IMG/VR virus record: IMGVR_UViG_3300044643_001072
Location: 1 to 37,477 of that record
Reading direction: 5' to 3' (one strand)
From: a virus
DNA length: 37,477 bases
The notes under the pieces are model-generated. The model saw only the letters and a list, made by a program, of their open reading frames with translations, was not told the origin of the DNA and ran no database searches. Numbering within the stretch: the stretch's first letter is position 1; every line of letters begins with the position of its first letter. This document shows positions 22,496 to 30,183 of the stretch, one piece after another. The translations under genes and the position numbers were made by a program.

Positions 22496-22717
22496 ATGCA
22501 AAACCATGATGTCCCTATCACGAACGAAGTGCTGACATTCCTGGAGCGGTCTGGCATGGCTAAGACGCGTTTCGGAGACTTGGCGGTTGGCGACTACAGT
22601 CTGGTGGACGATCTTCTGGCGGGCCGGGAGCCGCGCTCTGCAACGGTGCGAAGGATCAGGGCCAAGATTGAGGAATTGTCGGCTGGTATCACTGCCCAAG
22701 CCGGTGACGCAGCATGA
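22496..22717 (+). CDS. Small helix-turn-helix regulator (candidate repressor)
   Basis: A 73-aa protein. Residues about 10-60 suggest a compact helix-turn-helix: FLERSGMAKTRFGDLAVG, then SLVDDLLAGREPRSATVRR, a pattern seen in small alphaproteobacterial phage regulators. It lies at the divergent control region facing the early operon and seems to be expressed from a leaderless mRNA. It is therefore a candidate cI/Cro-like switch protein. It lacks a C-terminal dimerisation or protease-sensitive domain. Confidence 0.65.
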   Translation: MQNHDVPITNEVLTFLERSGMAKTRFGDLAVGDYSLVDDLLAGREPRSATVRRIRAKIEELSAGITAQAGDAA

Positions 22718-23483: not shown

Positions 23484-23671
23484 TCCGCCTATTGTCCCTG
23501 TTCCGCCGCACCCCGCAATCACGCGCGCCGCGTGTAGCCGTCGCATCGCTGGACGCCCGCCTTCGGGCGCGGGCAATGCGGGTCTGCAACAGGGACGCGG
23601 ACAGTGTTGAACAATACGTGCGCCTGCATAGCGCGCTGGCACATCATCCCAAGGAGTCCGCAGATGCTTGA
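23480..23671 (+). CDS. Small basic protein
   Basis: A 63-aa Arg-rich protein (MIRLLSLFRRTPQSRAPR at the start; LDARLRARAMRVC) with a His-rich C-terminus. ATGA overlap with the previous gene. It ends 8 nt inside the next gene. Not recognised. High basicity is compatible with DNA or RNA binding. Confidence 0.5.
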   Translation: MIRLLSLFRRTPQSRAPRVAVASLDARLRARAMRVCNRDADSVEQYVRLHSALAHHPKESADA

Positions 23672-23951
23672 CGGTCGCATGAAAAACACCCCCGCCGATA
23701 CCGCCGTTGCGGACAAGGCTCTGTCTGTGTCGGCAGAGGAATTGCGGCAATTCATCGAGCGGGCCGAAACCCTGGCAGCCGAAAAGCGCGACATTGCCGG
23801 TCACGAAAAGGAACTGTTCGCAGAGGCCAAGGGGCGCGGGTACGACACGAAGGCGATGCGCAAGATCATCGCCATTCGCAGGCGCAAGCCGGATGACGTG
23901 GCAGAGGAACAGGCTGTGATGGACCTCTATCTGTCTGCGCTTGGGATGTGA
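23664..23951 (+). CDS. GapR-like DUF2312 DNA-binding protein
   Basis: A 95-aa protein whose residues about 22-94 match DUF2312: SAEELRQFIERAETLAAEKRD, then ELFAEAKGRGYD, MRKIIAIRRRKPDD and a MDLYLSALGM end. The alphaproteobacterial prototype GapR is a nucleoid protein that encircles overtwisted DNA ahead of replication forks. A phage copy at the start of the replication block may aid phage replication or displace the host protein. ATG 23664 has AAGGAG (23651-23656); ATG 23679 is also possible. Confidence 0.88.
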   Translation: MLDGRMKNTPADTAVADKALSVSAEELRQFIERAETLAAEKRDIAGHEKELFAEAKGRGYDTKAMRKIIAIRRRKPDDVAEEQAVMDLYLSALGM

Positions 23952-26567: not shown

Positions 26568-27480
26568 TATTCACGAAGCAACGCAAGGCCGCTGGCGGGG
26601 CATCCTCGCAAGCGTGGGGCTGTCGCAGAGGGAACTGAGCGGGAAGCATTGCCCCTGCCCGATCTGCGGCGGTGTGGATCGGTTCCGCTTTGATGACAAG
26701 GCAGGCCGGGGGACATGGTTCTGCACCCATTGCGGTGCCGGGTCCGGTGTTGATCTGGTGATGAAGATGAAGGGCTGGGATTTCCGGGAAGCAATGACCG
26801 AAGTCCGCAAGCTGGTCGGGGCCAGTGCCGCCGAGCCGATCAAGGCGGGCATGTCCGATGATGACAAGCGGAACCTGCGCCTGTCGTTGTGGAATGCCTC
26901 GGTGCCGATCCAGCGCGGGGACATGGCCGACCAGTATTTCGCATCCCGCGAAATCGACCAAGGGGCCTATCCCAAGACCCTGCGGTTCTGCCCGTCCTGC
27001 CGGTATTCCGCAGACCAGTCTTTCCCGGCGCTGATTGCCGCCGTGCAGGATTTGGGCGGCAAGGCCATCACGCTGCACCGCACCTTCCTGAAGGACGGTG
27101 CCAAGGCACCGGTCGATACCCCGCGCATGTTGATGCCGGGAACGGTGCCAAGCGGATCAGCGGTGCGCCTTTCAGCCCACGGTGAAGTGCTGGGGATTGC
27201 CGAGGGGATCGAAACGGCCTTTGCCGCAAGTGATTGGTATTCGGTGCCGGTCTGGGCTGCGTTGAATGCCTCGCTCATGGCTGAATGGGAGCCGCCTGCG
27301 GGTGTGACCGAGGTCGTGATTTTCGGGGACAACGACGCGAACTTTGTCGGCCAGTCCGCAGCGTATCAACTTGCCCGCCGCCTTTCCAAAAAGAACCTGA
27401 CCGTAACCGTTCACATCCCGCCGATCCAAGGCACGGATTGGAACGACGTTGTATTGGATCACAAGGGGAAATCCAAATGA
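26557..27480 (+). CDS. DNA primase (zinc-binding plus TOPRIM)
   Basis: A 307-aa primase. Zinc module at about residues 30-62: CPICGG (C34, C37) and FCTHCG (C56, C59). A second Cys pair (FCPSC, about 144-148) is also present. The TOPRIM domain is at about 208-290, with IAEGIETAFAA (Glu216) and IFGDND (258-260). It ends GTDWNDVV. It belongs to the phage primase group without a fused helicase; the helicase is the separate gene upstream. The start ATG 26557 has a perfect AAAGGAGG (26543-26550). Confidence 0.92.
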   Translation: MRFDIHEATQGRWRGILASVGLSQRELSGKHCPCPICGGVDRFRFDDKAGRGTWFCTHCGAGSGVDLVMKMKGWDFREAMTEVRKLVGASAAEPIKAGMSDDDKRNLRLSLWNASVPIQRGDMADQYFASREIDQGAYPKTLRFCPSCRYSADQSFPALIAAVQDLGGKAITLHRTFLKDGAKAPVDTPRMLMPGTVPSGSAVRLSAHGEVLGIAEGIETAFAASDWYSVPVWAALNASLMAEWEPPAGVTEVVIFGDNDANFVGQSAAYQLARRLSKKNLTVTVHIPPIQGTDWNDVVLDHKGKSK

Positions 27481-28037
27481 CCATTCAAACCCGCACCATC
27501 GCCAATAAGCCCGGCCATGACGCCGGACACATCAACCGCGTCACATTGCGCGCAGAGCCATGGTTCACACCACCGGAAGCCAAAAAGGATCACCCGCGCC
27601 CAACTGCCGGAAAGCTTGAAGCCGTATCCCTTCGCGCGCCTCAAGTCGCAAGGGTGCGCGCTCCATGCCCAGACAGGTTCGCCGATTGGGATCAGGTCCT
27701 GCTTGCCGAACAATGGCTGGCCCTGTGCCGACGTGAAGGACATCGGCCAATGCTGCCGCCCAGTTCGGCATTGCAAAGCGAAGCCGCAAGGCGCGGCGCG
27801 GAAACCCGAAAGCCAGGATCATCGCAGATCATGATTGATCTCCTGGAACGCCTGCGCCACGGCGATATCCGGCGCAGCGAGCTTCTCAGCAGCAGAGTTT
27901 CCAGAAACGCAACGCTGCAGCGAAAGCGCGCCTTCGAATTGGGTTGGATCAAGGGCGGCTCGCACCCGGATTCGCTGATCACGATCACGACAGAGGGATA
28001 TGCGGCGCTGCAGGCAATGAGGCGGGAACACGGGTGA
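27477..28037 (+). CDS. Protein with C-terminal winged-helix-like region
   Basis: A 186-aa protein, basic and Arg/Pro-rich in the first 80 residues. The last 70 residues suggest a winged helix: IDLLERLRHGDIRRSELL, then SRNATLQRKRAFELGWI and ITITTEGYAAL. ATG 27477 overlaps the primase stop as ATGA; a long upstream extension of the frame is a shadow. It closes the replication block and may be a late-gene regulator or replication accessory. Family not recognised. Confidence 0.65.
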   Translation: MTIQTRTIANKPGHDAGHINRVTLRAEPWFTPPEAKKDHPRPTAGKLEAVSLRAPQVARVRAPCPDRFADWDQVLLAEQWLALCRREGHRPMLPPSSALQSEAARRGAETRKPGSSQIMIDLLERLRHGDIRRSELLSSRVSRNATLQRKRAFELGWIKGGSHPDSLITITTEGYAALQAMRREHG

Positions 28038-28201
28038 TCGAAACAGCGCGCCAGAGGCACCCTACAGCGGCAAGTCGGCTGGACGAGGAAAACCTTGTAA
28101 AACGCGACAAGGGCATCAGGCGGCCATCCTGCGAAGTTCTAGGGGGCATCAGCCGCCATCGCGCCGGGCGCGCGCCACCAGAAGCGCCGCAAACCGCTTG
28201 A
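28034..28201 (+). CDS. Small ORF, doubtful
   Basis: A 55-aa frame starting at GTG 28034 in GTGA overlap with the previous stop. Its end overlaps a more convincing minus-strand gene (28149-28301), and the composition (Arg/Pro-rich, no pattern) is unremarkable. The coupling is the only support. The stretch 28038-28148 otherwise holds only the repeat CTTGTAAAACGC. Confidence 0.25.
   Translation: MIETARQRHPTAASRLDEENLVKRDKGIRRPSCEVLGGISRHRAGRAPPEAPQTA
28094..28111. repeat. CTTGT repeat, first copy
   Basis: CTTGTAAAACGC (28094-28105) recurs exactly at 28343-28354, where it contains the -35 box of the late promoter. Here it is followed by GACAAG, giving an inverted repeat CTTGT/ACAAG (28094-28098, 28107-28111). 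Its half-site resembles the arms of the palindrome at 28308. Confidence 0.5.
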
Positions 28202-28301
28202 TCCGGTCATGCAAAGGCTTCGGTGCCCATATCTCAAGCCGGACAAGGCCAGCGTCCCGCTTGCGCTGGCGCTCGGCTGCTTTCCATTCAGCGGGGGGCA
28301 T
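28149..28301 (-). CDS. Small DNA-binding-like protein on the opposite strand
   Basis: A 50-aa basic protein (MPPAEWKAAERQRKRDAGLV, then RLEIWAPKPLHDRIKRFAALL). The pattern of a short basic N-terminus, a beta strand and a helix is that of small ribbon-helix-helix-like proteins common in phages. It is a lone minus-strand gene between the replication and packaging blocks. No ribosome site is evident before ATG 28301. A perfect palindrome lies 7 nt upstream, suggesting autoregulation and control of the late promoter beyond it. Confidence 0.65.
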   Translation of the reverse strand: MPPAEWKAAERQRKRDAGLVRLEIWAPKPLHDRIKRFAALLVARARRDGG

Positions 28302-28307
28302 GAAAAA

Positions 28308-28322
28308 AAGTTGTCACAACTT
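28308..28322. promoter_or_regulatory. Perfect palindromic operator
   Basis: AAGTTGT (28308-28314), a central C, and ACAACTT (28316-28322): a 15-bp perfect palindrome between the start of the minus-strand small gene and the rightward late promoter. A symmetric dimer is expected to bind it; the adjacent 50-aa protein is the best candidate (inference). Confidence 0.6.
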
Positions 28323-28343
28323 CACAGCCGACAGGCGTCATGC

Positions 28344-28372
28344 TTGTAAAACGCCATCTTGTGTATTACGAT
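28344..28372 (+). promoter_or_regulatory. Candidate late promoter
   Basis: TTGTAA (28344-28349), a 17-nt spacer and TACGAT (28367-28372) form a good sigma70-like promoter, starting transcription near 28379 and giving a 20-nt leader with GGTAGGG before the small-terminase ATG at 28399. The -35 box lies within the repeated CTTGTAAAACGC. Confidence 0.6.
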
Positions 28373-28398
28373 GCCTCGCAGGCAATAGGTAGGGCAAC

Positions 28399-28782
28399 AT
28401 GACCGGAAGGCCGTCAACATTCACGCAAGAGGTTGCCGACGCGATCTGTGAGCGGATTGCAGGCGGTGAAAGCTTGCGGGCAATCGGTCGTGATGACGAT
28501 ATGCCAAGTGCGGTAACGGTGTGCAAATGGCTGGATCAACAGCCGGATTTCGCGAAACAGTACACGCGCGCGCGCGAAATCCAAGGTGACGGGGAATTTG
28601 ATGAAGCCCGCGCTATTGCCTTTGCTGCCACGCCTGAAACTGCGCAGGTTGCACGGTTGCAGTATGACGCTGTGAAATGGCGGGCTTCCAAACTGCGCCC
28701 GAAAGTCTATGGCGACAAGCTTGATTTGAGCGGCAACATCGGAATGACCGTCACCATTGCCAGCCCGGATGCTGACCTGTGA
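28399..28782 (+). CDS. Terminase small subunit
   Basis: A 127-aa protein of the Sf6-like small terminase type. The N-terminal helix-turn-helix reads GRPSTFTQEVADAICERI, then GESLRAIGRDDDMPSAVTV and WLDQQPDFAKQY. The C-terminus has YDAVKWRASKLRPKVYGDKL. It recognises the packaging site and forms an oligomeric ring with the large subunit. The pac site of such phages is often within or near this gene; none can be pointed to here. Confidence 0.9.
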   Translation: MTGRPSTFTQEVADAICERIAGGESLRAIGRDDDMPSAVTVCKWLDQQPDFAKQYTRAREIQGDGEFDEARAIAFAATPETAQVARLQYDAVKWRASKLRPKVYGDKLDLSGNIGMTVTIASPDADL

Positions 28783-28866
28783 TCATTACGTCCAATCAGA
28801 TCAGCGATGCAGCGCGCGCCCGGTTGTAAGCATGATAAAGTCTCGCAAGATATGGGCGCACTTGGA

Positions 28867-30183
28867 ATGACGTTTTCCCTGACCCCAAAGCAATCGGAGC
28901 TGCGCGCGCTTGCGGCATCGCCGCGCAAGAATGTACTGTGCTATGGCGGGTCACGGTCTGGCAAGACGTTTGGCTTTTGCTATTTCACAGCGACCCGCGC
29001 GGTCAAGGCCCCAGGGTCACGCCATGCGATATTCCGGCGGCATGGCGTGGCTGTGAAGCAATCCATCGGAAAGGACACGCTGCCCAAGGTTTTTGCCTTG
29101 GCCTATCCTGCGGTCAAGTTGGACTGGCACGAACAAGACGGTTATTTCAGCCTGCCGAACGGTTCCGAAATATGGCTTGCAGGCCTTGATGACAAAGACC
29201 GCGTTGATAAGGTGCTGGGCCGCGAGTTTGCCACGCTTTATTCAAACGAGGCTTCCGAGATACCGCTGTCATCATACCTTGTTGCGCAGACCCGTCTTGC
29301 GCAAAAGGTGGTGCAGGTTGACGGGCGCGATCTGCCGCTGAAAAACTATGTCGATCTCAATCCAACCACCAATGCGCACTGGACCTATCGCATGTGGATT
29401 GATGGGGTAAATCCAGACGGCGAGGGCCAGATTGATTTGGCGACCTACGCCCATATGGTGATCAACCCGATGGATAACGCGGACAACCTGCCTGCCGATT
29501 ATCTAGACAGCTTGCGCGCTCTGCCGGAACGCCAGCGCCGCCGTTTCTGGGACGGTGATTACATGGCGGACGTGGAGAATGCCCTTTGGCGGCGCGACTA
29601 CATCCGCCGGACACAGACAAAGCCGGACATGGTGCGAATTGTAGTTGCAGTTGATCCCGCTGTATCAAACGAGGTGGGCAGCGACGAAACGGGCATTATC
29701 GTGGCCGGTCTTGGCACAGATGGCCGGGGCTATGTGCTGGCGGATGAAAGCGGGCGCTACAGGCCAGAGGAATGGGCGCAGCGTGCCGTATCCGCATACC
29801 GCACATGGGACGCTGATCGGATCGTGGCAGAAGTCAACCAGGGTGGCGCAATGGTGGAAAGCACCATCCGGGCGCAAGGCGCGAACGTGCCTTACAGGGC
29901 CGTACATGCCAGCCGTGGCAAGGTCACGCGGGCGGAACCGATTGCGGCGCTGTACGAGCGGGACAAGGTGCGCCACGCGGGCGAGTTCGGCGCGCTTGAG
30001 GACATGATGTGCCAGTTCACGACCGGCTTTGACCGCAAGCTGCAAGGCTATTCGCCTGACAGGGTTGATGCTTTGGTATGGGCGCTCACTGATTTGTTCC
30101 CGGACATGGTCAAGAAGGCTGCTCCGGCACCGCCAATTCAAATTGCCCCGCGCCCGGCGCTTGGGGCGGGCCGTCGATTTTAG
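28867..30183 (+). CDS. Terminase large subunit
   Basis: A 438-aa packaging motor. ATPase domain: Walker A GGSRSGKT (about 27-34), RRHGVAVKQS, and a Walker-B-like LYSNEASE (about 124-131). Nuclease domain: AVDPAVS (D263) near the start, VAEVNQGG, and DRVDALVWAL at the end, as in the Terminase_6 C-terminal family. ATG 28867 (MTFSLTPKQ) is chosen because TerL proteins of this group begin so. The frame is open back to 28807. Two tiny frames (28779-28829, 28832-28870) lie in the 84-nt gap before it; the second overlaps this ATG. Confidence 0.94.
   Translation: MTFSLTPKQSELRALAASPRKNVLCYGGSRSGKTFGFCYFTATRAVKAPGSRHAIFRRHGVAVKQSIGKDTLPKVFALAYPAVKLDWHEQDGYFSLPNGSEIWLAGLDDKDRVDKVLGREFATLYSNEASEIPLSSYLVAQTRLAQKVVQVDGRDLPLKNYVDLNPTTNAHWTYRMWIDGVNPDGEGQIDLATYAHMVINPMDNADNLPADYLDSLRALPERQRRRFWDGDYMADVENALWRRDYIRRTQTKPDMVRIVVAVDPAVSNEVGSDETGIIVAGLGTDGRGYVLADESGRYRPEEWAQRAVSAYRTWDADRIVAEVNQGGAMVESTIRAQGANVPYRAVHASRGKVTRAEPIAALYERDKVRHAGEFGALEDMMCQFTTGFDRKLQGYSPDRVDALVWALTDLFPDMVKKAAPAPPIQIAPRPALGAGRRF

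Follow-up and report, generated by a model that had tools for sequence, protein, structure and literature searches.

The DNA ahead of the small terminase gene of this P22-like podovirus is probably, judging from comparison with its relatives, a mosaic junction at which a gene remnant has been joined by deletion upstream of a packaging promoter. The window analysed here is the whole stretch of 37,477 nt, positions 1 to 37,477 of IMG/VR virus record IMGVR_UViG_3300044643_001072. An earlier note on this DNA had proposed that a 50-aa basic gene on the minus strand, a perfect palindrome close to its start and a rightward promoter feeding the packaging genes form a compact early-late switch. The most likely verdict is instead a mosaic joint of the ordinary kind, made up of an orphaned gene remnant, a chance palindrome and a packaging promoter, the last of these real and probably functional. 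Such a joint between phage modules can mimic a compact regulatory circuit.

The gap before terS measures 361 bp. To its right lie a small terminase of the Sf6 type (TerS, PF20901, E 3.1e-37; 28399 to 28782, plus strand), the large terminase (TerL; 28807 to 30183, plus strand) and then portal, scaffold, coat and head-closure proteins, while RecE- and RecT-like genes occupy the minus strand on its left side. We take this gene content to be of the P22/Sf6-like podovirus type. All three elements named in the earlier note are present where it placed them. The 50-aa ORF (28149 to 28301, minus strand) encodes a basic protein with 13 K+R versus 6 D+E; the ATG at 28301 is the sole start codon near its 5' end, and a TGA a few codons upstream closes the frame, which spans 54 codons from stop to stop. 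Seven nucleotides separate this ATG from the perfect 15-bp palindrome AAGTTGTCACAACTT (28308 to 28322), with two 7-base arms around a central C.

The joint itself emerges from the alignment with a related viral contig, L001, which is collinear with the window in four pieces: 27477 to 28077 (601 bp, 95%), 28099 to 28149 (51 bp, 90%), 28158 to 28292 (135 bp of the 50-aa gene, 93%) and 28286 to 28403 (118 bp of the terS-upstream block, 92%). Between these pieces L001 contains, among others, the HTH gene and two genes for products of 204 aa and 139 aa, the latter with weak HNH-type matches, and about 1.5 kb separate its 50-aa gene from the palindrome/promoter block. At the first junction (28286 to 28301, minus strand), the opening ATG CCC CCC is like the terS-upstream DNA of L001 and of a second contig, L015, and from GCTGAATGG on the sequence is like the 50-aa gene of L001. 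Where the promoter block begins on the left, the window's minus strand reads CTTTTTTTCATGCCCCCCGCTGAATGG, L015 upstream of terS reads CTTTTTTTCATTCCCCCTGC, and the corresponding stretch of the L001 50-aa gene reads ATGAAGCCTGCTGAATGG. The first codons of the ORF are best explained as terS-upstream DNA that would have been fused to the gene body over a short shared CC(C/T)GC. With its start and first codons derived from terS-upstream DNA, the ORF would thereby have lost its own leader and translational coupling. At the second junction (28149 to 28158), homology to the L001 50-aa gene stops at 28158 and that to another L001 stretch, on the HNH-gene side, stops at 28149; the C-terminus of the ORF departs from L001 after about residue 44. 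The nearness of ORF and palindrome is a recombination joint, and no second contig with the same joint was found. Of 8 stretches that the 186-aa gene on the left side of the gap recovered from viral sequences, the L001 contig alone was confirmed. A near-repeat, GGGCATCAGGCG at 28111 to 28122 and GGGCATCAGCCG at 28144 to 28155, lies near the second junction and is a possible trace of recombination.

What kind of gene is the ORF? The 50-aa ORF represents a real gene family, because protein relatives exist. With the protein as query, 2 loci were found in viral contigs, and a three-sequence alignment found 4, on four distinct contigs that do not include the window's own record. In all four, the small gene lies directly behind and overlaps an XRE-type HTH gene, starting inside the end of that gene or across its stop; the HTH products of these contigs carry a terminal RPPEWP plus further residues, and the two that were tested match phrog_14076, a transcriptional regulator (E 5.1e-13 and 1.1e-9). 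An HTH alignment, used as query, recovered 32 loci from viral and 12 from genomic sequences, and 23 of these were examined by eye (12 of the 32 and 11 of the 12, respectively). A small gene directly follows the HTH gene in 7 of these 23, four of them the contigs already known; the other three contigs were found via the HTH gene and are hence paired by construction. In the remaining 16 the small gene is missing, and the HTH family therefore occurs without it too. Over the body of the protein, the window ORF is 40-92% identical to its seven homologues. The small gene directly follows an HTH gene in all seven other contigs and fails to do so in the window alone, where a six-frame translation contains no homologue of the relatives' HTH protein. 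Neither the 50-aa protein nor the 383-bp stretch 28038 to 28420 has a match among named phages, a search of plasmids with the L001 homologue as query gave nothing, and a genome scan with the 50-aa alignment yielded 150 stretches, none confirmed. Arrays of a GTGGCGGTTA unit lie just behind the small gene or in frame with it in L002 (L002:3083-3380), L021 and L140, with 11, 6 and 3 exact copies, respectively (those in L140 near the gene), and none in the window. One homologue, L143, weakly matches NF050185 (E 9.6e-5; score 21.9 bits, cut-off 300).

We infer that the direction of change was loss, since distant homologues share the HTH-linked arrangement and loss in the window lineage is likelier than gain in all the others. 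The lasting element would be a short module of rightward promoter and leader, about 28335 to 28403, which would drive the packaging genes and which, from one relative to another, has become attached to either of two unrelated small terminases. Upstream of this module the relatives have a leftward operon, with the HTH regulator gene and then the 50-aa gene at its end. In the window lineage, recombination or deletion would have taken out the operon promoter, the cargo genes and the HTH gene; of the operon's last gene, codons 4 to about 44 would remain between the two junctions. The start codon of the ORF would now sit within former terS-upstream DNA, with no recognisable ribosome-binding site, and the palindrome would be a chance symmetry.

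The rightward promoter of the earlier note, TTGTAA-17-TACGAT (28344 to 28372, plus strand), stands insofar as the sequence is present before terS and is identical in the window, L001 and L015; as a promoter by consensus alone it is not significant. It has 8 of 12 consensus matches, under the cut-off of 9, and sites of this quality number 42 on the plus strand of the window (1.1 per kb) and turn up in 16.5% of 2000 simulated gaps. The window, L001 and L015 agree throughout the promoter (0 of 29 columns variable) and differ at 2 of the 15 palindrome positions and at 5 of 41 positions in the upstream part as a whole, a contrast that is weak and not significant (Fisher p 0.07 for promoter versus upstream variation, 0.13 with the leader included). 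L001 and L015, the two other contigs with the promoter block among the matches listed, are 97.7% alike over 1.6 kb, and because its carriers are so closely alike, the conservation of the promoter rests on few changes. A DNA scan with AAAAAAGTTGTCACA found at least 119 stretches; among the matches listed, L015 and L016 (the L001 contig) were studied in detail, and the motif counts cover all fetched loci. Promoter activity of TTGTAA-17-TACGAT seems probable.

The surroundings of this promoter are those of a module boundary. A 113-bp block (28291 to 28403, plus strand) is 93% identical in L015, where it precedes a non-homologous TerS. The TerS of L001 is of the GP3_package type (PF16677) and that of L015 differs from it by one residue; blastp of the window TerS against that of L015 gave no match at E 10 or better. 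The TerL match between window and L015 is confined to the C-terminal half (50.6%), and 46 nt near the terL 3' end are identical. The same block ahead of two unrelated small terminases marks a mosaic boundary, and together with the shared 46-nt stretch it makes the TerS-TerL pair look exchanged as a cassette (window 28399 to 30183 versus L015:1051-2918). Mosaic boundaries described for tailed phages (PMC3029335) resemble the window's, with its short conserved stretch between non-homologous modules and a second stretch bracketing the TerS-TerL exchange; unlike those, the window boundary itself holds a late-gene promoter and leader, with a gene fragment on one side. An exact direct repeat, CTTGTAAAACGC, occurs at 28094 to 28105 and 28343 to 28354, the second copy overlapping the promoter. 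Its interpretation as a shared control box was dropped, as L001 does not keep the word at the position corresponding to the first copy.

Could the remnant still be expressed, by leftward read-through, as a solo protein that has nothing to do with the promoter, for example as the former partner of a lost HTH regulator? The frame is intact and its differences from L001 are mostly synonymous (5 of 8 codon differences over codons 3-48, codon 3 lying inside the junction), so the gene may still be in use. Nevertheless, the minus strand from 28030 to 28450 contains no leftward promoter with at least 8 of 12 matches in a search for sigma-70-type sites, and the translational coupling to the HTH gene is lost, which makes this explanation unlikely. 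The Shine-Dalgarno energy is -2.1 kcal/mol for the window ORF and -3.1 to -9.1 kcal/mol for six homologous sites, in a test that discriminates poorly (random median -3.2 kcal/mol). The reading as an orphaned remnant, with the ORF probably silent, remains the preferred one.

The idea of a regulatory node suits the relatives better than the window. Beside the block, L001 and L015 carry TTGACC-17-TATGTG, directed leftward and holding the palindrome CCTGACCGGTCAGG in its spacer, a combination absent from the window. Behind this promoter lie small genes and then, in L001, the HTH gene, while L015 ends short of that point. In L001:1500-3147 we see a leftward operon in which an operator-like palindrome accompanies genes of no known kind and an HTH gene resembling Aca3, possibly anti-defence cargo. 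The HTH profile finds Aca3 (9vt3, E 7e-4); the 204-aa gene has no Pfam or NCBIfam match and one weak PHROG of unknown function, and for this and a 94-aa gene there was no informative family match, and no acr gene was recognised in these family searches. In acr-aca operons an inverted repeat lies within the core promoter, and the HTH gene follows downstream (PMC9410906). L001 and L015 (two near-identical contigs only) have in common with such operons the promoter holding an inverted repeat and the unknown small genes behind it, which in L001 an HTH gene follows; the extra small gene behind the HTH gene and the lack of a recognised acr gene are points of difference. The relatives' operon can be said to resemble acr-aca operons, not to be one of them. 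The regulatory object proper would be the HTH and small-protein operon of the relatives, divergent from the packaging promoter and a candidate for autoregulation and anti-defence cargo. Perhaps podoviruses of this group use the DNA from the replication genes to terS as a site for cargo, which in the relatives is an Aca-like, self-regulated and possibly anti-defence operon; the 50-aa protein would then be a dedicated partner of the HTH regulator, kept in the window to modulate, on its own, the late promoter next to it. We consider this combination very unlikely.

Very unlikely, too, is the switch in its original form, in which the 50-aa protein, as a repressor or activator, would bind the palindrome and so switch the late promoter. 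The protein is basic, its family is tied to a regulator gene, and the palindrome sits between ORF and promoter. Against this, no DNA-binding family could be assigned: the ORF has 0 Pfam matches and none below 0.01 among PHROGs (best E 0.017, a family of unknown function), the window has no homologue of the relatives' HTH protein, and an AlphaFold model of two helices, a helix-loop-helix with a low pTM of 0.44, matched no solved structure at E 0.001 or better. A ribbon-helix-helix fold was considered and rejected on the basis of this model. Moreover, L001 holds the 50-aa gene elsewhere, and an operator role of the palindrome is not supported. Palindromes with arms of at least 7 around 0-1 base are at chance level in the window (5 observed versus 7.7, sd 2.5, expected from 40 first-order Markov simulations), and 6.6% of 2000 simulated 361-bp gaps contain one. 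The symmetry is lost in the relatives, paired bases falling from 7 of 7 in the window to 6 of 7 in L001 and 5 of 7 in L015. A search of the window for AAGTTGTNACAACTT with up to 3 mismatches gave nothing beyond the site itself, hence no second operator copy. A role as a leftward terminator hairpin was also rejected: at -2.4 kcal/mol the window's hairpin is weak, and it is not conserved in the relatives (-1.4 and -0.7 kcal/mol). CI/Cro-type early-late switches are approached by the relatives, with a palindrome and promoters near a regulator gene, and differ from the window, which has no regulator, paired operator or leftward promoter.

An assembly artefact of the metagenomic contig is likewise very unlikely, for although the joint is found in no other contig and L004, the relative nearest to the window (98.3% identity over 1705 bp), starts no further left than window position 28467, the homology to L001 is collinear on both sides of the joint and the genes of the window make a coherent phage set. 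Elsewhere in the window, 23604 to 23951 encodes a GapR-like DNA-binding protein (PF10073, E 1e-27), and a 141-aa ORF at 22714 to 23139 matches the C-terminal part of phage transposase families (phrog_506, E 4.6e-24).
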